Shown: positions 14,025-62,398 of the stretch, piece after piece
Layout: every line of letters begins with the position of its first letter
Numbering within the stretch: position 1 is the stretch's first letter
DNA from: Microbulbifer sp. MI-G
Lineage (GTDB): Bacteria; Pseudomonadota; Gammaproteobacteria; Pseudomonadales; Cellvibrionaceae
Direction: 5' to 3'
Length of the DNA: 64,000 nt
Assembly: GCF_030440425.1 (NCBI RefSeq)
Contig: NZ_CP098023.1
Location: 1,911,501-1,975,500, forward strand
Made by a program: the position numbers and the translations under genes
The notes under the pieces: model-generated
What the model saw: only the letters and a program-made list of their open reading frames with translations
Told to the model about the DNA's origin: nothing
Databases searched by the model: none

Positions 14025-14732
<708 letters not shown>

Positions 14733-14753
14733 GTTGTCGATGCCGATACATCT

Positions 14754-14780
14754 AAAAAGCTCCCTCTCGGGAGCTTTTTT
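14754..14780 (+). terminator. Rho-independent terminator of adk
   Basis: A perfect 11-bp stem (AAAAAGCTCCC with GGGAGCTTTTT), a TCTC loop and a run of six T. The flanking A-run makes it likely to work in both directions. Confidence 0.93.
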
Positions 14781-14900
14781 ATATTACCCTCACTGCGCCT
14801 TTGGCGGAAGATCAGCATTTCTGTTCCTTGTGAGTGTCCCTTTAACCAGTTATTTTCGGCGGGCTTTACCGACAAATTTACTGATGAGGCGGGTTTGACT

Positions 14901-15899
14901 ATGTCCACGGCAGTAATCTTGATGAATTTGGGCACGCCCGCACAGCCGACTGCAGCTTCGGTGAGGCGATTTTTGCGGGATTTCCTCTCTGATCCCCGTG
15001 TTGTGGAAATTCCCCGCCCTCTCTGGCTCACAATATTGAACTGTCTGGTTTTGCCGTTTCGCCCCAGGCGCATCGCGCCCGCCTATGAGGGAATATGGAA
15101 CCGTGGTGTGGATGGTGCTCGGGTTGCAGGTTCTCCACTTCTCTACTATACACGCACACAGGCTGAGTTATTACAGGAGCATTTTTATAGTAACGGGCGC
15201 GATCTTGTGGTTGAGTATGCTATGACCTACGGCGGCCCGCGGCTACACCAGGTGGTGGAGACACTGCGTAAAAAAGGGATTGAATCCTTTGTTGTTTTCC
15301 CACTGTATCCACAATATTCAGCTACAACCACAGCGGCAATTTACGATCAAGTGGCGCAGATTTTTCTCAAGAGCCGCGATATTCCAGATATTTCGCTAGT
15401 AAGGGATTATTATCATAATCCCCTCTATATCAACGCGCTCGCCAATTCCGTGCGCGAGCACTGGCAGAAGTACGGGCCGGCCGAAAAACTCCTGTTGTCA
15501 TTTCATGGTATCCCGAAGGCCAATACTGAGAAAGGAGATCCCTATTATCGGCACTGTCTAGAGACTGCGCGTCTGTTGGCGGATCAATTGCAAATTGCCG
15601 GGGAATGCTGGCAGGTCAGTTTCCAGTCCCGTTTTGGCAAAGCGGAATGGTTACAGCCCTATACCGATAAAACACTCACGGAATGGGGTGCACGCGGCGT
15701 GGCTTCCGTAGATGTCATCTGTCCAGCATTCTCGGCGGACTGCCTGGAGACCCTGGAAGAAATTTCGGTAGAGAATCGCGCTATTTTTCTCGATGCGGGG
15801 GGAAGTGAATACCGATATATTCCTGCATTGAACCTGCGCAAAGATCATATTGAGGCGCTAGCTGCAGTGGTTGAGAACCGCTTGCCGGGACCAAAATAA
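14901..15899 (+). CDS. hemH: Ferrochelatase
   Basis: A 332-residue protein that inserts ferrous iron into protoporphyrin IX, the last step of haem synthesis. The N-terminus has VILMNLGTPAQP, the middle has YAMTYGGPRL and VFPLYPQYS, and the signature LLSFHGIPKAN with catalytic His is followed by GDPYYRHC; the C-terminal part has FQSRFGKAEWLQPYT and CPAFSADCLETLEEI. The ATG at 14901 is preceded by GAGGCGGG; a TTG two codons upstream is less likely. Transcribed after the adk terminator, so it has its own promoter. Confidence 0.95.
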   Translation: MSTAVILMNLGTPAQPTAASVRRFLRDFLSDPRVVEIPRPLWLTILNCLVLPFRPRRIAPAYEGIWNRGVDGARVAGSPLLYYTRTQAELLQEHFYSNGRDLVVEYAMTYGGPRLHQVVETLRKKGIESFVVFPLYPQYSATTTAAIYDQVAQIFLKSRDIPDISLVRDYYHNPLYINALANSVREHWQKYGPAEKLLLSFHGIPKANTEKGDPYYRHCLETARLLADQLQIAGECWQVSFQSRFGKAEWLQPYTDKTLTEWGARGVASVDVICPAFSADCLETLEEISVENRAIFLDAGGSEYRYIPALNLRKDHIEALAAVVENRLPGPK

Positions 15900-52424: not shown

Positions 52425-54848
52425 TCATCTCGATCTGCATGGCACTTCGATATCGGCGATCAGTGGAAGATGGTCGGAGGCCCTGCGGGTGAGGGCAGTG
52501 CGGGGAATACACACCTCCTTCACCGAGAGCCCGGCGCTAAGGAATAAATGATCAATTCGTACTTTGAGAAATGTCCCTGTGGGGGTGTGCTGGGGGGCCT
52601 GTTCCTGGGCATCGCGCAAGTAGCCCCCCAGCCGTTTGCATTCGGCGGAATTGGGCAGCGCATTGAAATCGCCCAGTAAAATCCGCTCCCCTTTGCAGCG
52701 TGGATTGTTTAACCACTCGGGCCCCAGTAGAGCATCTACCTGCCGCAAGCGCTCGGCACGGGAAAGTCCCAGGTGTGTATTGATGATTTGTAACCTGTTG
52801 CCATTATGCTCAATCTCCACCCAGACGGCGCCGCGGGGCTCATGGAAAGCCAGGTTAAAAAGGCGGCCTTTCCCCTTGGGTGGACCCGGTAATATCCCTC
52901 GTTTAATGAGCCGGACAGGCAGGTGGGTGAGGATGGCGTCACCGTAACGCTCTTCTTCGAGATTGATGGCCGGCTGGAAGTGCATATCCATTGCCAGCAA
53001 TCGCGCCAACCGCTCTGCCTGGTCCAATCCTCCACTGCGCTTGCGCATGACATCCAGTTCCTGCAGGGCGACAATATCCGGCCGGTAACGGGCGATCACC
53101 CGGGCGATGCGTTGGGGTGAGAGTGTACCGTCCACACCGCGGCAGCCATGCACGTTGTATGTCATCACCCTGAGGACTTCACGTGGTCGCCTGTGTTTGT
53201 GCACCTTCATCGGGCGGGCGCCGCGCAGGTAGGCCCTGGCGGCGGAGCGCAGGTCCTGCGGGCGCCAGTATCCCGGGCTTGAGTCTGGTGGCTGGATATC
53301 CTCCGGCATTAGGGCAAAGGCCTGGGTTTCGTTGGGTCCCGCACCACCATGACTGCCGTTTTCCATCGCAAAGGTGAGTGGTTGCCGCTCCCCGGCACAC
53401 CAACCGTACATCATGAAATCACCGGCATCCGGGTGGCCGCACAGGCTGATCATATCGGCGATCACCTGATGGGGGTAGGGGTGTTGATCCCCCATCAGTT
53501 TGCGGCCATCCTCCGGCAGGCGCACGGGGCCGTATTTCCACCAGCCGTGCACTGGAGATGAACGGGACTTGGGGTCGACTCGATAGAGCACCAGCGGTAC
53601 ATGGGCCTGTTCAACGATTGTTCTGGCTACCTGCGCCCGGCTGACACCGGTGAGTTCCACATTGTAGAGCATCGCCAGTGGCCCGAGGGCCGTCAGTGCC
53701 AGTGGCCGGTTGCCCTCCTTTCGGGTGGCGTCTTCCGGCTCCCAGGCTTTATCCATCCATTCGCTGCCAAACAGGCGCTTTCGTTCCAGTTGGACGCCGC
53801 ATGAGCCGTGCCCCGGCGGGATTTCCAGTGTTTCACAAAGGCCCGACAGGGCCTCCGACAGGGCGTCCCCCAGGCTGCGACCGTAACGCTCTGCATAGGG
53901 TTGCGTCTGCTCCTGGCCATGATCCGAAAAGATCCATACATCGTAATGGCGGCGATCTGCTGCGTGCGCCGCGCGCCAGATGCGCCCCACTGCATCGTCG
54001 ATGCCTTTTAGTACCCAATGGGCGAAGGCCGAGCGCGGGCCGCGACGGTGGGACTGCTCGTCGTAGCCCAGCAAGTTGACGTAGATAATAGGCAGGCCGC
54101 GGGCAATATCGACCTTCACACCCATAGTACAGAATTCCCGGGTGAGGATCGTGATGCCCACCCGCGTGGGAATAAACATCAGCTCTCTCAGCAAGTCCTG
54201 GCCCTGGATAACGCCGCGTACGAAGTCCACCAGTGAGAGGATCAATTCGAGCAGAATCAGCGCGCCGGTGCGAAACAGACTCCAGATATTGGTTAATATC
54301 AGCATGCAAAGCGTCAGTGGGCTGGAACTGCGCAATGCCGGTCCCCAGCCCTGGTCCGCTGGGCAGAAATGGGCTTCACCGGTCTGCGTGCCTGCGCGGA
54401 ACAGGCTCAGGTAACAACTGCCGCCGCGCAACAGCGGGTCCCGCTGTTGGGTGTTGATTCTGCTTTCCACCAATGCTGCCACTTCGGGGTCGTACATACG
54501 CCCGAGCTTCTGGGTTTCGTGAACCAGAAAACCAAACGCGGGTACGGCCTGGCGCACACCGTAAAAGAGTTCGGCCTGTACGGCGGGTGTTGTTGAGGGT
54601 ACACCTGGGTACAGGTGCTGCAGGCGATAGTGTTCCCTGCGCATCAGCCGTTTCAGAAAGGGCATGCGGCCCACTCTCAAAGCTTTGCGTAACTCGGGAT
54701 AGGCGAGGCCATCTATCTGGATAAGAATCAGCCCGGGGGCATGGGGTTGCCGTCTGCTGCTGGGCAGGCCGAGCAGGTGCGCTATCCATTCACTGCGGCT
54801 GAAACGGCGGCGCCAGCGCCTGATGGAGAGACCGATTCGGCTTAACAT
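52425..54848 (-). CDS. Fusion of alkaline-phosphatase-superfamily phosphodiesterase and EEP-family phosphatase/nuclease
   Basis: An 807-residue two-enzyme protein. Residues ~40-540 form an alkaline-phosphatase-like domain: metal-binding LILIQIDGLAYPEL, PGVPSTTPAVQAEL with the likely Thr nucleophile, VNLLGYDEQSHRRGP and IFSDHGQEQTQ. A hydrophobic stretch at about 195-235 (LCMLILTNIWSLFRTGALIL and following) suggests membrane insertion within this domain. Residues ~560-807 are a complete endonuclease/exonuclease/phosphatase domain: VMTYNVHGCRGVDG, IVALQELD, INTHLGLSRAERLRQVD, ILLGDFNALPNS and RASDHLPLIADI. Both active sites look intact. ATG at 54848 is chosen; the upstream frame overlaps the GT gene. 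Last gene of the four-gene operon; a lipid or glycolipid phosphodiester is a plausible substrate (inference). Confidence 0.85.
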   Translation of the reverse strand: MLSRIGLSIRRWRRRFSRSEWIAHLLGLPSSRRQPHAPGLILIQIDGLAYPELRKALRVGRMPFLKRLMRREHYRLQHLYPGVPSTTPAVQAELFYGVRQAVPAFGFLVHETQKLGRMYDPEVAALVESRINTQQRDPLLRGGSCYLSLFRAGTQTGEAHFCPADQGWGPALRSSSPLTLCMLILTNIWSLFRTGALILLELILSLVDFVRGVIQGQDLLRELMFIPTRVGITILTREFCTMGVKVDIARGLPIIYVNLLGYDEQSHRRGPRSAFAHWVLKGIDDAVGRIWRAAHAADRRHYDVWIFSDHGQEQTQPYAERYGRSLGDALSEALSGLCETLEIPPGHGSCGVQLERKRLFGSEWMDKAWEPEDATRKEGNRPLALTALGPLAMLYNVELTGVSRAQVARTIVEQAHVPLVLYRVDPKSRSSPVHGWWKYGPVRLPEDGRKLMGDQHPYPHQVIADMISLCGHPDAGDFMMYGWCAGERQPLTFAMENGSHGGAGPNETQAFALMPEDIQPPDSSPGYWRPQDLRSAARAYLRGARPMKVHKHRRPREVLRVMTYNVHGCRGVDGTLSPQRIARVIARYRPDIVALQELDVMRKRSGGLDQAERLARLLAMDMHFQPAINLEEERYGDAILTHLPVRLIKRGILPGPPKGKGRLFNLAFHEPRGAVWVEIEHNGNRLQIINTHLGLSRAERLRQVDALLGPEWLNNPRCKGERILLGDFNALPNSAECKRLGGYLRDAQEQAPQHTPTGTFLKVRIDHLFLSAGLSVKEVCIPRTALTRRASDHLPLIADIEVPCRSR

Positions 54849-54856
54849 TTGCGCGG

Positions 54857-56131
54857 TTATGACTCGGGAGTTTGGCTGAGAGCAGCGCCCGCGGCCCCCG
54901 TCAGCCCCTCTAGGATTTCCCACTGAGCACCGATCAACTTGCGCAACCGCATCCATTGGGTATACAGGGAGTCATCCATGGGCCAGCCGGACTTGAGCAG
55001 GGGCTGATAGAGATCCAGGGCGCGTTGGGCACAACACTTCATGGAGAAATCTTGTGCGGTATTACGGGCTTGGCGTATCAGGGCGTGGCGGTTCTCCTGG
55101 GGAAGCTGATGCAGCCAGAGTATTGCCCGAACAAAGCTGCGGGTTTCCCCCTCTGTGACTAAGCGGCCATTGATCCTATCGCGCACTATTTCACGCGTAC
55201 CATTGGCGTCTAGGGCGATGACTGGAACGCCTGAGGCCATGGCCTCGGATAGAACGAGCCCCTGGGTTTCGGTGGTGGAGGCAAAGACAAAAGTATCCAT
55301 AGCGTTGTAACTATCCCGGTGCCAACTGCCCAGCACTGTGCCGGGCATGTGCAGGCGTTCAGAGAGACCTCGCCTTACAAAGATCTGTTGTAGCTCTTCC
55401 TGCAGCGGGCCGCTGCCGGCGAAAAGGAAGTGGGCGTTTTTCTCGGCCTGCAGAAATTCAGCCACGGCATGACACAAAAAGTGCAGGTTTTTTTCCTGCC
55501 CGAGACGGCCGAGATGCCCCACCACAAATGCAGACTCGGGAATATCTAGTTGTCGGCGTACTCTGCCGCCGTCCCCATCGGCATACTGTTCCAGTTGCAC
55601 ACCGGTAGGCACTTCGGCAATGGGTGTTTGCACACCCCGTTGCTGCAACAGCTTGGCAATGCTCAAACTGGGTGCCAGCACCAGATTGGCTAAGTTGGCG
55701 TAGCGGGTGGCCAGCTCGATCACAAAGCGCTTGAGTACCTGGGAGTCGGCCGGAACATAGTGCGTGTAGTGCTCATACAAGGTGTGGTGGGTAAACACCA
55801 GTGGCAGCTCCCGCTCCCGGGCTACCCGCAGTGCGGTCATACCGAGCAGAAAGGGGTGGTGGGCATGCACTATATCCGGCTGGAACCTATCCAGACGCTC
55901 ACTCAGATCCGGTGAAAAGGGCAGGGCGACAGAAAAGTCACTGCCGTTGAAATTCTGGATGGCGTGAATCCGCAGGACATGTTGCTCACCAGGTATTTTT
56001 TCCGGAAATTCCGGCGCAACCACCAGAACCTCATGGCCGCGCTTGCGGTACTCGGCGCTGAAGGCATCAATCGAATGCGCAACGCCACCGACGTGGGGCA
56101 AATAGGTATTGGTGAGCATGACAATATTCAC
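54857..56131 (-). CDS. GT4-family glycosyltransferase
   Basis: A 424-residue GT-B enzyme. N-terminal VNIVMLTNTYLPHVGGVAHSI and HAHHPFLLG; the acceptor-side motif FTHHTLYEHYTHYVP resembles lipid glycosyltransferases such as monoglucosyldiacylglycerol synthase; the donor side has GHLGRLGQEKNL, FAGSGPLQEEL and ASTTETQGLVLSEAMASGVPV. It likely adds a hexose to a membrane lipid, but donor and acceptor are not proven. The start is GTG at 56131, overlapping the upstream stop as GTGA, so translation is coupled. The stop lies eight bases before the fusion gene. Confidence 0.85.
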   Translation of the reverse strand: MNIVMLTNTYLPHVGGVAHSIDAFSAEYRKRGHEVLVVAPEFPEKIPGEQHVLRIHAIQNFNGSDFSVALPFSPDLSERLDRFQPDIVHAHHPFLLGMTALRVARERELPLVFTHHTLYEHYTHYVPADSQVLKRFVIELATRYANLANLVLAPSLSIAKLLQQRGVQTPIAEVPTGVQLEQYADGDGGRVRRQLDIPESAFVVGHLGRLGQEKNLHFLCHAVAEFLQAEKNAHFLFAGSGPLQEELQQIFVRRGLSERLHMPGTVLGSWHRDSYNAMDTFVFASTTETQGLVLSEAMASGVPVIALDANGTREIVRDRINGRLVTEGETRSFVRAILWLHQLPQENRHALIRQARNTAQDFSMKCCAQRALDLYQPLLKSGWPMDDSLYTQWMRLRKLIGAQWEILEGLTGAAGAALSQTPES

Positions 56132-58368
56132 TGGATGCTCAGCTCCACGTGTTGCAAGCCTTCCGTCACCCGTGTGGGCCTGTAGTCGAGGGGATTGACG
56201 CAAATCGTTGGCGGCTTGTCATACCAGTCGGCTTCCCAGGATATTGACGGGTTGATGCCGGGATGGATCTCCAAGGTAATGACGCCAAATCGAGTGGGCG
56301 CAGGGCCGAAGCGGATGGGTTTTCTGGTGGTGGTGTCGCCGATCCATTCCGGTGGCAGACCTGCGCCTAAAACCAGGATGTCCTGCTCTTCCCGTACAAA
56401 ACAGTTACGCTGCATGGCAACCCATTCGGCGGCGGCCCAGGCGTGCTGCCCATCTCCCATACAGCCGCCGAGAGAGAGGGGGTGAATCGCCTCCGGCCAC
56501 TGGCCAGTGGGGGAGGCGAGGCGCGCTACATTTCCCATTAACTCGAGGCAGCGCCGGTCCCCGGCCCGCAACAAGAGCTGAGCAATATGCAAAGTCAGGT
56601 AGGCGTTGATCCCCGAGTGGATCATGTCCTGAAAAAAACCGCCGCTGACAAAACAGGTGTCGATCAGGTAGTCAGCCAGGTCGGTAAGGCGGGGATCGTC
56701 TGGAGGGTAGAGCTGCAGCGGATAACCGGCGGCTATGGAGCCTATGGCACCCGCGTCCAGCCGCCGGTTGGGAGAGGCGGGCATTGCCGGCCGTCCCAAT
56801 CTGCGCTCAGCGCTGGCCAGGCTTTTGTTGATGGTGCGCTGAAATGCACTGGCTGCAGCGCTGAAGTGGTGGGCGTTTTCGTCGATTCCTTCCCGTAGGC
56901 AGATGGCAGCGGCTGCCTGCAAGCCGGCCACAGCCCAAAAATCATCCCAGTAATAGCAGTCGTTGGGGCCCAGGTGTTCAGCACTGAAACCCGCAGGAAG
57001 CAGACCGGCGCAGCGGCTGTCATTCTGAGGCTGTCGTTTGCCAATAATCCATTTTGCCCCCTTGAGCACCGGCTCATACCAGGCCCGCTTGAGGGGTTTG
57101 TTGGCCAGTTGGCAGTAGCGGTCAAAAATCCACAGGGCCTCGCCGTTGGAATCCCACTCCCCGTCCTGTGAGTGAAAGAAACCATCGCGCTTTTGTCGTT
57201 TGGGAAACTGGTCCAGGGCCCGCTCGGCCCGCTTCGTCAGCCCGGCAAACAACAGCGATTGAATTATAAATGTGGCATCCCGGAACCAGAAGCGTTTGTA
57301 GGTATAGGGACCTGGGTATACATCCTTGGGAGAATGCAGGATCAGGGTGCGGATTGCCGCATCATAGAGGAATTGATGATCCTTATCCGGTACCTCAAGG
57401 GCGCAGTGCCCTTCCAGGCTTTCTTGCCAGGTTGTGGTAATTGTGTCTTTGTGCGTCTCGGTGACCAGGGGAATAGAGACCTCCAGCTTGCGGGGTTTTT
57501 GCCGCTCTATGCGGAACATGGCCGCTGCCGTGGCCATGCCCACGTCACACTCTCCCTGCATGCATCCTTTTTTATCTTTCAGGTGCAGGAAAATATCGCC
57601 ATTGCGGTAGTCGGACGCCAGGTGCTTGTCTGCAGGGTGTTCGAATTGAACGGCGGGCCGGCCCTCTATCAACCAGTGTCGGCCATTACCCGCCAGGCGC
57701 ACCTTATGCACAAAACTGACGCCCTCGGGATTGCAGGGGCGCAGTACCACCACTAGCCAGCCACCGCCGTTGCAGCTGGCGGTGAGTGCCATGGTGCAGC
57801 AGGGGCCTTCGGGCCCTGCCTGCACCTGTATGCGGTTGCAGAGTTTCAGGTTTTTATGGGCGGTTTCAGTGACTATGGCAATATTGTCCAGATCCAGGTG
57901 CTGTTTGCAGTAGGGAAGGGAGGAGGGCGTCAATGTATCGCCGGCGTCATTGATTACCCAGGCATCAATAGACCAACCATCGTAGTGGGGGGTGAGTAGT
58001 CCACGGGGATCTACAATCGGCAGCGCCTCGCAGTCCGGCAGCCCTACAGCGGTCCAGTTGCGGTGACTGAGATTGCAATGGGTGATGGAGAAGGCGCGGG
58101 GTATAAAGGACTTATCCCGGGGATCAAATTGGCGTTGGATCCAGTAGGGCCAGACCCAGTCCAGATTGTGCTGGATAACTTTACTGTTAATCAATGCACG
58201 TGCGTGAAATACCGCTCCGGCCCGCAGCAGTTCAATAGGTTCGCTCACTTCTGAGGGCTCGGCAAAGCGCTGAAGATGCGCCATCAATGTCAAAGGGTCC
58301 AGGAAACCATGAGCTGTGGCGAATCGGCGTACGAAGAAGCGCCATGGCAGCCATTTCATCCAGGGCAT
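56128..58368 (-). CDS. Six-hairpin glycosidase-like protein, unknown specificity
   Basis: A 746-residue protein with no signal peptide, so cytoplasmic. The C-terminal half has (alpha/alpha)6 glycosidase-like features: YTYKRFWFRDATFIIQSLL, DGFFHSQDGEWDSNGEALWIF, NDCYYWDDFWAVAGLQAAA, GQWPEAIHPLSLGGCMGDGQHAWAA. The acidic residues in EWDSNGE and WPEA are candidate catalytic residues. The N-terminal half is a beta-rich region of unknown type. It may hydrolyse an oligosaccharide or debranch a glucan; it is not a standard trehalase or GlgX. ATG at 58368 overlaps the preceding stop by one base (TAATG). Confidence 0.7.
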   Translation of the reverse strand: MPWMKWLPWRFFVRRFATAHGFLDPLTLMAHLQRFAEPSEVSEPIELLRAGAVFHARALINSKVIQHNLDWVWPYWIQRQFDPRDKSFIPRAFSITHCNLSHRNWTAVGLPDCEALPIVDPRGLLTPHYDGWSIDAWVINDAGDTLTPSSLPYCKQHLDLDNIAIVTETAHKNLKLCNRIQVQAGPEGPCCTMALTASCNGGGWLVVVLRPCNPEGVSFVHKVRLAGNGRHWLIEGRPAVQFEHPADKHLASDYRNGDIFLHLKDKKGCMQGECDVGMATAAAMFRIERQKPRKLEVSIPLVTETHKDTITTTWQESLEGHCALEVPDKDHQFLYDAAIRTLILHSPKDVYPGPYTYKRFWFRDATFIIQSLLFAGLTKRAERALDQFPKRQKRDGFFHSQDGEWDSNGEALWIFDRYCQLANKPLKRAWYEPVLKGAKWIIGKRQPQNDSRCAGLLPAGFSAEHLGPNDCYYWDDFWAVAGLQAAAAICLREGIDENAHHFSAAASAFQRTINKSLASAERRLGRPAMPASPNRRLDAGAIGSIAAGYPLQLYPPDDPRLTDLADYLIDTCFVSGGFFQDMIHSGINAYLTLHIAQLLLRAGDRRCLELMGNVARLASPTGQWPEAIHPLSLGGCMGDGQHAWAAAEWVAMQRNCFVREEQDILVLGAGLPPEWIGDTTTRKPIRFGPAPTRFGVITLEIHPGINPSISWEADWYDKPPTICVNPLDYRPTRVTEGLQHVELSIQ

Positions 58369-59120
58369 TATAAATCCTCTTCTCGAACGATTTGTCTGAG
58401 GGCGCGGCGCGCCATACGGGTGAGGCCGATCAGGGCCACTACCGCCAGAACAAAGCCCGCGATATATAGGGTCCACTGAAGGGGTGTGCGCTCTTCTACC
58501 TTGCCCAGAGAGGTCAGGTCTGCGGCGATGGAGCCGACATAGACGTTGTGAATTGTGAGGGGGATGATGCCCAGCGTGTTTCCCAGCACAAAATCCCGCA
58601 GCTTTAGGGGCGTCAACCCAAAAAAGTAATTGGAGAGTTTGAAGGGAAACAGTGGTACCAGGCGCGTTAGCATCACCATCTGCCATCCTTCGCGCCGGAT
58701 GATTTCGCCGATGGTTGCCGGTTTGATATGGGACATGACCCAGCGTGAAGGCCTTTCACCAAAGAGATAGCGAGCACTGAGGAAGGCGATAGTGGCGCCG
58801 AGTACAGTGCCGGCGATTACCAGGAGGGACCCTTTCGGGACCCCGAAAACAAATCCGGCACCCATGGTAAAGATGACACCGGGCAGCAGCAGGATCACCG
58901 CCGCTGCGACAATCAGGATAAACAGCAGGCTTGTTTGCCAGCCGCGGTCGTTGAGCCACTGGAGCAGCGCTATCAGTTGTTCATCCAGGTCAAAATAGAA
59001 TACCAGGCTGAGCGCTCCCGCCACGACGATAAGACACACAGTAAATGCTGCAACTGGTAGGAACTTCGCCGACATAAAACTGCCCGGGAAACCAACATTT
59101 GCGAAATTGATCGCCGCCAT
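58368..59120 (-). CDS. TVP38/TMEM64 (VTT domain) family membrane protein
   Basis: A 250-residue inner-membrane protein of the DedA/VTT superfamily. Signature regions: LLLPGVIFTMGAGFVFG, GTVLGATIAFLSARYLFGE, VMLTRLVPLFPFKLSNYFFG and LGIIPLTIHNVYVGS. VTT proteins are proposed lipid scramblases or flippases. An internal ATG at 59075 is an alternative start; the first is taken because the annotated N-terminus is short in either case. It is the first gene of the four-gene operon, joined to the next by a TAATG overlap. Confidence 0.88.
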   Translation of the reverse strand: MAAINFANVGFPGSFMSAKFLPVAAFTVCLIVVAGALSLVFYFDLDEQLIALLQWLNDRGWQTSLLFILIVAAAVILLLPGVIFTMGAGFVFGVPKGSLLVIAGTVLGATIAFLSARYLFGERPSRWVMSHIKPATIGEIIRREGWQMVMLTRLVPLFPFKLSNYFFGLTPLKLRDFVLGNTLGIIPLTIHNVYVGSIAADLTSLGKVEERTPLQWTLYIAGFVLAVVALIGLTRMARRALRQIVREEDL

Positions 59121-59495: not shown

Positions 59496-59828
59496 GTGAT
59501 TGTTGTATTTATTGGTTTCTCGGACTGGTGGACAGCAGTGTTGTTGATGATCTTCGGTTTTATTCATCTTTTAGGCATCGATATTCAGCAGGTTTCAATT
59601 TTCATTCTGACCATCGCCCTGGGGCTTCTGGTGGATGATCCGCTCGTGGCTAATGTTGCTATGCACGACAGATGGCCGCCGGTAATCTCCCCATGGCTGG
59701 GGGCGACGATTCTGGCCAAAGCCATATTTTTCGTGACATTTACCAAACAGCACCGGAACCGGTGGTATAGCCCGATTGCCTTGGATTATTATGATTGCGC
59801 CGCAGGGGCGAATGGAGGATCCCAGTGA
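59496..59828 (+). pseudogene. Fragment of an RND efflux transporter (AcrB family)
   Basis: The 110-codon frame reads IVVFIGFSDWWTAVLL, FGFIHLLGIDIQQVSI, LTIALGLLVDDPLVAN and WLGATILAKAIFFVTFT, the transmembrane core of RND pumps including the aspartate pair of the proton relay region. A full pump has over 1000 residues; here only about 90 match before the sequence diverges. Upstream traces are out of frame. It is a decayed gene. Confidence 0.85.
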
Positions 59829-61322: not shown

Positions 61323-61589
61323 ATGAAAAAATCGAAGTACAGCGACAGCCAGATTCTGGCGATACTCAAGCAGGCCGAAAATGGCGTGCCAGTGCCTGAA
61401 CTATGCCGAGAACACGGTATGAGCTCAGCGAGCTTCTATAAGTGGCGATCCAAGTACGGCGGCATGGATGCCTCAATGATGGCCCGCCTGAAGGAACTGG
61501 AGGATGAAAATCGGCGCCTCAAGAAGATGTATGCCGAAGAGCAGTTGAAGGCTGAAATCGTTCAGGAAGCTCTGCAAAAAAAGTGGTAA
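61323..61589 (+). CDS. IS3-family transposase OrfA
   Basis: An 88-residue protein with an N-terminal helix-turn-helix ([36 protein letters not shown]) and a leucine-zipper segment ([20 protein letters not shown]). It binds the terminal repeats. It overlaps orfB by seven bases in the -1 frame. The run of seven A before G at 61576-61583 is a typical slippery site. Confidence 0.93.
61576..61583 (+). promoter_or_regulatory. Programmed -1 frameshift site in the IS3 element
   Basis: AAAAAAAG lies in the overlap of orfA and orfB; slippage by one base backward fuses the two frames into an OrfAB transposase of roughly 358 residues. Confidence 0.75.
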
Positions 61590-62398
61590 AGCCATCTCGG
61601 CGAAAGGAGATGGCGCGGCAAGCCGTAGCCACACGGTACATCAGTATTCGAATTGCCTGTGCTGCTTTCGGTGTCAGTGAAAGTTGCTATCGTTATCAGC
61701 CTGTTCTCAGCGATGAAAACGAGGAGATTGCCGATTGGCTTATCCGGTTAACAAATGAGCAGAGTGACTGGGGCTTTGGCCAGTGCTTTCATTACCTACG
61801 CAACGTGGAGGACGCTCAGTGGAACCACAAGCGCGTTTACCGGATCTACTGTGAGCTGGCGTTAAATATGCGAATAAAGCCAAAACGTCGCCTCAAGCGC
61901 CAGGCACCAGAACCTCTGAAAGAACCAACAAAAGCGAACCAAGTATGGTCAATGGACTTTATGCATGACCAGCTAAGCGATGGCCGGAACTTCAGGCTGT
62001 TCAATGTCATTGATGATTACAGGCGTGAAGGACTGGCAATCGAGGCCGGTTTTTCACTGCCAACGATACGTGTGACTCGCGCTCTCAACCAGCTACTTGA
62101 ATGGCGGGGCAAGTCCAGCATTATCCGCTGTGATAATGGCCCTGAGTTCATCAGTCATGAGTTTGTAGCATGGGCGAAAAAGCGGCGAATACGGATCGAG
62201 TACATCCAGCCAGGCAAACCACAACAAAATGCTTATATCGAGCGAGCCAACAGAACCATTCGGTATAGTTGGCTCAGCAAGCACCTCTTCGACAGCCTTG
62301 AAGAGGTTCAGGATTATGCAACTGAATGGTTATGGTTTTACAATCACCGCCGGCCACACAAAGCAAATGGCGGTAAACCACCGTTGATGGTGGCTTAA
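61583..62398 (+). CDS. IS3-family transposase OrfB (DDE domain)
   Basis: A 271-residue integrase-fold domain. The catalytic triad is complete: Asp in WSMDFMHDQ, Asp in [11 protein letters not shown] and Glu in [11 protein letters not shown], with 35 residues between the last two (DD35E). An HTH_21-type segment ([19 protein letters not shown]) lies at the start. It is probably made mainly as an OrfAB fusion; the GTG at 61583 is a nominal start. No internal stop or frameshift is seen, so the element may be active. Confidence 0.93.

Follow-up and report, generated by a model that had tools for sequence, protein, structure and literature searches.

A recurrent four-gene module of Microbulbifer sp. 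MI-G and other bacteria, probably concerned with a sugar-bearing membrane lipid

We have identified in the genome of Microbulbifer sp. MI-G (4.48 Mb) a set of four adjoining genes, which was analysed within a stretch of 64,000 nucleotides (NZ_CP098023.1, 1,911,501-1,975,500), hereafter the window. They encode a membrane protein of the VTT type, a glycosidase-like protein of 746 amino acids (aa) that we call GLY, a GT4 glycosyltransferase and a phosphodiesterase with two catalytic heads, PDE-EEP. The same set is kept together in hosts labelled as belonging to several phyla. The module is real, conserved and apparently mobile, and the mechanism proposed for it, drawn from sequences and predicted structures, is plausible: the products of the four genes probably synthesise, transport and degrade a membrane lipid that bears sugar.

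Gene organisation

The four genes share the minus strand and stand in the order VTT, GLY, GT4, PDE-EEP; coordinates here and below are window positions.

59120-58368, minus strand: VTT (TVP38/TMEM64-like) multi-span membrane protein, 250 aa (Pfam VTT_dom, hydropathy peaks)
58366-58370, minus strand: TAATG stop/start overlap of VTT and GLY, the TAA sharing one base with the ATG (read from the sequence)
58368-56128, minus strand: GLY, glycosidase-like, 746 aa, beta-sandwich plus (alpha/alpha)6 (predicted fold)
56128-56131, minus strand: GTGA overlap of GLY, ending CAG-TGA, and GT4, starting with GTG (read from the sequence)
56131-54857, minus strand: GT4 glycosyltransferase, 424 aa, EX7E motif E288/E296 (Pfam, NCBIfam, conservation)
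54848-52425, minus strand: PDE-EEP, type I phosphodiesterase (NPP-like) plus endonuclease/exonuclease/phosphatase-fold domain, 807 aa (Pfam, AlphaFold2)
54795-54848, minus strand: amphipathic helix at the N-terminus of PDE-EEP, residues 1-18 (net charge +7, hydrophobic moment 0.74)
54204-54320, minus strand: hydrophobic insert in the PDE domain, about residues 177-215 (hydropathy)
52425-53183, minus strand: EEP domain, about residues 556-807

GT4 and PDE-EEP are separated by 8 bases. Direct reading and Pfam confirmed the three junctions, the coordinates and the four gene identities given in an earlier note on this DNA. The closest protein relatives are from Microbulbifer (GLY 97%, PDE-EEP 99%).

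Distribution of the module

A GLY profile found relatives in 522 stretches of the genome collection, the best 80 of which were retrieved and probed with profiles of all four proteins. Loci were counted only with at least 1 kb of flank upstream and at least 4.5 kb downstream of GLY, which excluded 15 (2 Marinobacter, 13 other). Among these best 80 of 522, the complete set is present in all 25 Microbulbifer loci with enough flank, counting one metagenome-assembled genome (MAG) labelled only Gammaproteobacteria (L044), and in 22 of the 27 other loci outside Marinobacter; the five incomplete ones lack VTT (2), VTT and PDE-EEP (2) or PDE-EEP (1). A chance neighbourhood within a single genus, the alternative set out beforehand in the earlier note, is excluded by this recurrence outside Microbulbifer.

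Gene order is constant with one exception, a Nitrospinaceae locus outside the flank-based count (L079), where PDE-EEP comes first. When the predicted proteins of the 80 loci were clustered, none of the first 40 clusters supplied a fifth gene at a constant position; the clusters left over were confined to Microbulbifer or to Marinobacter, scattered (one of 300 aa, in 7 other loci) or made of antisense frames over GT4.

By label, the hosts of complete modules are Gammaproteobacteria (Methylobacter, Methylomonas, Rheinheimera and MAGs), Betaproteobacteria (Thiobacillus), Thermodesulfobacteriota and Nitrospinota. One complete module each is labelled Myxococcota and Halobacteria; both may be mislabelled records, since the GLY tree groups them with Desulfobulbaceae and a gammaproteobacterial MAG. 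Three alphaproteobacterial loci (L069, L071, L088) hold GLY, GT4 and PDE-EEP without VTT. Overall the distribution is patchy, with GLY in 5 of the 299 genomes of a phylum sample, MI-G included. In a Thiohalobacter genome (L106), a PDE-EEP match with an in-frame stop lies far from GLY-GT4.

Inheritance and transfer

The family of Microbulbifer was surveyed in 144 genomes, 48 of the same genus and 96 others. GLY is present in all 48 and gave a strong match in four of the 96, with a marginal one in a fifth (G363, E 7.6e-4). Strong PDE-EEP matches occur in the same 48 genomes and in three of the four other GLY-bearing ones; elsewhere in the family, seven genomes gave weak matches to the EEP region (E 8e-16 or weaker). 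A stop codon fell within the matched stretch in 2 of the 48 (G005, G020). In genome G013, 43 residues of a second GLY copy survive as a remnant (G013:C1:682854-682982), some 4 kb away from the complete gene.

In the GLY tree (62 rows, a quick tree with 14 open forks), the four family loci from outside the genus fall apart from Microbulbifer: L115 and L116 group with L113 and L076 (support 95), L118 with Rheinheimera and Thiobacillus (support 95) and L117 with Marinobacter (support 98). Given this separation, at least three further arrivals in the family are likely, of which one would have brought just the VTT-GLY pair. The four proteins also diverge in step, with Mantel r of 0.75-0.84, and for each pair 0 of 5000 permutations reached the observed value; these values come from 23 non-Microbulbifer loci with four full-length proteins each and include a contribution of shared host descent. 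The module seems to have been moved and inherited as a unit. Synteny, correlated divergence and scattered re-appearance all support the earlier note's reading of the four genes as one functional set.

Predicted properties of the four proteins

GLY has no Pfam family at E<=0.01, and the Pfam GH15 profile (PF00723) found 0 matches in the MI-G genome at E<=1e-20. A sequence search of the PDB returned nothing with GLY alone at E<=0.1 and, with a profile, a best E of 0.024. The predicted fold is of the glycoside hydrolase GH15/GH65 type, a catalytic (alpha/alpha)6 barrel with an N-terminal beta-sandwich, and so would fit action on an alpha-glucoside. The nearest folds listed are glucoamylase, GH65 alpha-1,2-glucosidase, dextran dextrinase and methylmannose polysaccharide hydrolase, with GH94 and GH65 phosphorylases also among the neighbours; identity to the listed structures is 9-16%. 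R363-D364, D475 and E626 are invariant. E626 aligns with the LPEQ glutamate, the general base, of a GH15 relative (hhalign E 4e-4, probability 34%, one comparison), and we know of no phosphorylase with a general base corresponding to that glutamate. A weak alignment (E 0.024) sets D475 against the W-E of dextran dextrinase, and hhalign places that region otherwise. The N-terminus is conserved, mildly cationic and has about 100 residues more than GH15 glucoamylases and GH65 glucosidases; neither a long hydrophobic segment nor a secretion-like one is present. GLY is a widely spread glycosidase-type family without a name, and the Pfam result and the structure prediction agree with its earlier description as a six-hairpin glycosidase-type protein of no named class.

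GT4 matches Pfam GT4 families with up to 119.6 bits and has no long hydrophobic segment. Enzymes of this family are retaining glycosyltransferases, and both glutamates of the EX7E motif (E288, E296) are kept in 65 of 65 sequences. Its top NCBIfam model, matched over the full length with 141.9 bits, is alpha-monoglucosyldiacylglycerol synthase (Mgs, NF049988), which bears out the resemblance to glycolipid synthases proposed earlier. The same model came out best in all five module GT4s scanned, four others besides that of MI-G (134.6-168.4 bits); the second model of the module proteins is N-acetylglucosaminyl phosphatidylglycerol synthase, and the lower matches include exopolysaccharide transferases. 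In the MI-G genome, the module GT4 is the sole NF049988 match at E<=1e-25.

PDE-EEP joins a Phosphodiest domain (PF01663, 45.8 bits, cut-off 23) to an Exo_endo_phos domain (PF03372, 70.5 bits, cut-off 24.5), and its AlphaFold2 model has a mean predicted local distance difference test score of 73.2. Of 16 active-site positions checked, 15 are invariant in 46 of 46 members, in keeping with the two-headed phosphodiesterase described earlier. In the PDE head these are D46, T87, D263, H267, D309, H310 and H500, which we take to be the nucleophile and six metal ligands; in the EEP head they are N565, E597, H692, D727, N729, D766, D792 and H793, presumably the catalytic N, E, H, D, N, D, D-H set. The hydrophobic insert is likewise found in all 46, with a 19-residue hydropathy maximum of 1.61-2.47 that starts at residues 177-197. 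Possibly the N-terminal helix makes contact with the membrane, and the insert is a possible membrane anchor. In the PDB sequence search, PDE-EEP alone had no match and its profile retrieved 13 EEP or NPP sequences. The EEP fold has relatives in neutral sphingomyelinase and the C-terminal domain of PGAP2IP; since tyrosyl-DNA phosphodiesterase and nucleases are matched just as well, the substrate cannot be read from the fold. In locus L116, PDE and EEP are encoded in separate adjacent frames, and both heads therefore seem to serve one pathway.

VTT matches the Pfam VTT_dom with 85.7 bits (cut-off 33.9), shows five hydropathy peaks, two of them overlapping, and has no NCBIfam match. Its true start may be M16 (59075), since tblastn matches begin at residues 9-19 in 20 of the 25 Microbulbifer loci.

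The reduced form in Marinobacter

All 13 Marinobacter loci with enough flank encode VTT and GLY only, and none holds the complete set; L117 likewise has this pair without the other two genes. Six Marinobacter genomes with VTT-GLY contain no PDE-EEP (G039 gave an EEP-region match only, E 8e-4) and no GT4 of more than 34% identity. Loss is likelier than an ancestral state, because the Marinobacter loci nest inside the tree of complete modules; VTT and GLY must be useful without GT4 and PDE-EEP. In 11 of 15 Marinobacter loci, the gene after GLY encodes an EamA-type transporter. L053 has a diacylglycerol-kinase-like gene (14101-15009; DAGK_cat, YegS_C) some 3 kb beyond VTT-GLY on the downstream side; the cluster of this gene is present in 11 of 15 Marinobacter loci.

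An Mgs-like GT4 (at least 121.9 bits) is encoded in all 22 GLY-bearing genomes chosen, the module's own in 13 of them, and at 120 bits or more in 7 of 119 other genomes of the phylum sample. In all nine GLY genomes that lack a module GT4, an Mgs-like GT4 is encoded at another site (192-220 bits); a link of this in-trans protein to GLY is only suggestive. In L146-L151 (Marinobacter, G406, G408, G120, G100), the stand-alone Mgs-like GT4 is a protein of 738-752 aa, laid out as a domain between two membrane helices, followed by the GT4 part, in the four of six retrieved copies checked for hydropathy. Its N-terminal domain is weakly calcineurin-phosphoesterase-like in two of five scanned (19.9 and 20.6 bits, cut-off 21.5). 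The idea of a fusion between a PlcP-type phosphodiesterase and a glycosyltransferase was dropped: by eye the metal motifs look degenerate, and the protein is present without GLY in L150 and L151.

Surroundings of the locus

Promoter- and terminator-like sites were uninformative (5 against 4.0 expected and 3 against 7.2, respectively). An IS3-family transposase gene (61583-62398; NF033516, 217.5 bits) is located near the operon, and a 110-aa frame upstream of it on the plus strand (59496-59828) looks by eye like a piece of an RND efflux pump.

Polar lipids of host genera

No description of the four-gene set was found by title or abstract in the literature searched, subscription papers being mostly outside reach. 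In the available part of one paper (PMC9637087), a table gives glycolipids GL 1-2 for Microbulbifer sp. ALW1 and for five strains of the genus used for comparison, including M. okinawensis JCM 16147, which counts in favour of the glycolipid model set out below; phosphatidyl glycolipids are listed as well. For Marinobacter metalliresistant, phosphatidylethanolamine, phosphatidylglycerol, diphosphatidylglycerol and an aminolipid are given in the accessible part of its description (PMC11371751). Biformimicrobium (Microbulbiferaceae) is said to lack glycolipids in the accessible text of its description, whose table lists glycolipids in 4 of 9 columns (PMC11426391). We rejected such reports as proof of the module's product, as they conflict with one another in the parts available, the same strain JCM 16147 appearing with and without glycolipids.

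Proposed mechanism and alternatives

Sphingomyelinase-like folds, a GT4 of the lipid type, a scramblase-type VTT and an alpha-glucosidase-type fold together point to a membrane glycolipid made from diacylglycerol. From the synteny, co-variation, predicted folds and conserved active sites we infer substrates, the order and direction of steps and sidedness as follows. The unit would work at the inner membrane, for the most part on its cytoplasmic face. PDE-EEP would be attached to the inner leaflet through its cationic amphipathic helix and hydrophobic insert and would remove phosphodiester head groups from phospholipids to leave diacylglycerol, its two heads taking different head groups or making successive cuts. 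GT4 would then attach an alpha-linked hexose, probably glucose, to diacylglycerol, and VTT would equilibrate an uncharged lipid (the glucolipid or diacylglycerol) between the leaflets. GLY, as an inverting glucoamylase-type hydrolase with D475 as candidate acid and E626 as candidate base, may take the sugar off again, which would let the lipid pool switch back. Taken whole, as a co-inherited, horizontally moving inner-membrane lipid unit whose glucolipid is made from and returned to diacylglycerol, the model is possible and we hold it tentatively. A more specific version, a transferable phospholipid/glucolipid switch on the cytoplasmic face that comprises a two-headed phospholipase C, a diacylglycerol glucosyltransferase, a scramblase and the founding member of a new deglucosylating glycoside hydrolase family, spread over at least three phyla (five by record labels), is doubtful.

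Several observations weigh against the lipid model. PDE and EEP folds are also found in enzymes cleaving nucleotides and nucleic acids, and GT4 falls below the NF049988 cut-off (141.9 against 400 bits), so its donor and acceptor are no more than provisional assignments. Marinobacter and G406 retain VTT and GLY without the module GT4 or PDE-EEP, and GLY is therefore not dependent on the module GT4. The correlation of GLY with Mgs-like GT4s is confounded: eight of the nine in-trans cases apparently belong to one genus, and G120, of that same genus, has the GT4 without GLY. For M. weihaiensis and M. okinawensis JCM 16147, the accessible table, which omits unidentified lipids, gives phosphatidylglycerol, phosphatidylethanolamine and an aminolipid only (PMC12472934). 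The earlier note had pictured a glycolipid that is made, flipped and recycled; the single unit and the types of glycosidase, GT4 and phosphodiesterase stand, and the closed cycle is a conjecture, as Marinobacter keeps VTT and GLY alone.

GLY could instead act on an alpha-glucan or other glycan intermediate, soluble or polyprenyl-linked, which the module would trim and recycle, with VTT moving the lipid carrier and PDE-EEP cutting a phosphodiester of the carrier or product. Some DedA proteins move undecaprenyl phosphate, the nearest predicted folds of GLY act on glycans, exopolysaccharide transferases are among the lower matches of GT4, and the pair that persists without GT4 in Marinobacter is mostly followed by the EamA-type gene. 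This explanation is unlikely, given that the module has no fifth gene at a fixed place across hosts and that the top GT4 model was a lipid glucosyltransferase in every case scanned.

The PlcP-Agt system of Phaeobacter, SAR11 and Pseudomonas aeruginosa, in which a phosphodiesterase encoded beside a lipid glycosyltransferase converts phospholipid to glycolipid, follows the same logic as the module, and the latter might be its equivalent in phosphate-starvation remodelling under PhoB, with PDE-EEP in the role of PlcP and GT4 in that of Agt. Against this, the system as described in the accessible parts of two papers (PMC4796936, PMC8528852) includes neither a glycosidase nor a VTT protein, and several module hosts are sulfate reducers by name. 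The best Pho-box matches in 69 upstream stretches averaged 8.93 of 14, against 8.81 for shuffled sequences, in a scan without a working positive control, and the earlier suggestion of phosphate limitation finds no support here. In the MI-G genome, 22 sites have at most two mismatches (14 for a reversed control pattern), none of them within the window. Around the two best genomic sites, five of the seven frames of at least 120 aa were scanned, with an N-acetyltransferase, two DUF families and no pho gene as the outcome; because these sites adjoin no recognisable pho gene, the scan is unable to exclude regulation. We consider this equivalence quite improbable.

In the least probable account, GLY extends a monoglycosyl lipid to a diglycosyl lipid as a transglycosylase or phosphorylase, and PDE-EEP then acts on a phospho-group of the product: this accords with the phosphorylases and dextran dextrinase among the fold neighbours and with the phosphatidyl glycolipids listed for ALW1 in the available part of its report (PMC9637087), and is opposed by the alignment of E626 with the GH15 base.

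A four-gene set kept together across phyla offers a handle on how diderm bacteria adjust their membrane lipids. With it come a glycosidase-type family without a name and a two-headed phosphodiesterase in which both active sites are conserved. VTT also gains a constant set of enzyme partners, from which its transported substrate might be learned. Several hosts are named strains (Microbulbifer, Rheinheimera, Marinobacter), so deletion and lipid analysis are feasible.

Comparison with known systems

VTT shares with the VTT/DedA (TVP38/TMEM64) proteins the multi-span build and a VTT_dom score over the cut-off, and differs in its partnership with GLY; it is a putative scramblase. Unlike GH15 glucoamylases and GH65 glucosidases, GLY lacks a Pfam match and a secretion-like segment and has Asp at the candidate acid position. 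GT4 has the layout and EX7E motif of Mgs, but its score is far under the curated cut-off of 400 bits. Compared with NPP-type and EEP-fold enzymes, PDE-EEP has both heads in one chain, together with a hydrophobic insert and an amphipathic N-terminus. Like PlcP-Agt, the module pairs a phosphodiesterase with a lipid-type glycosyltransferase, a likeness drawn from descriptions of that system; its phosphodiesterase, however, is of NPP type with an EEP head, and a glycosidase and VTT are added.

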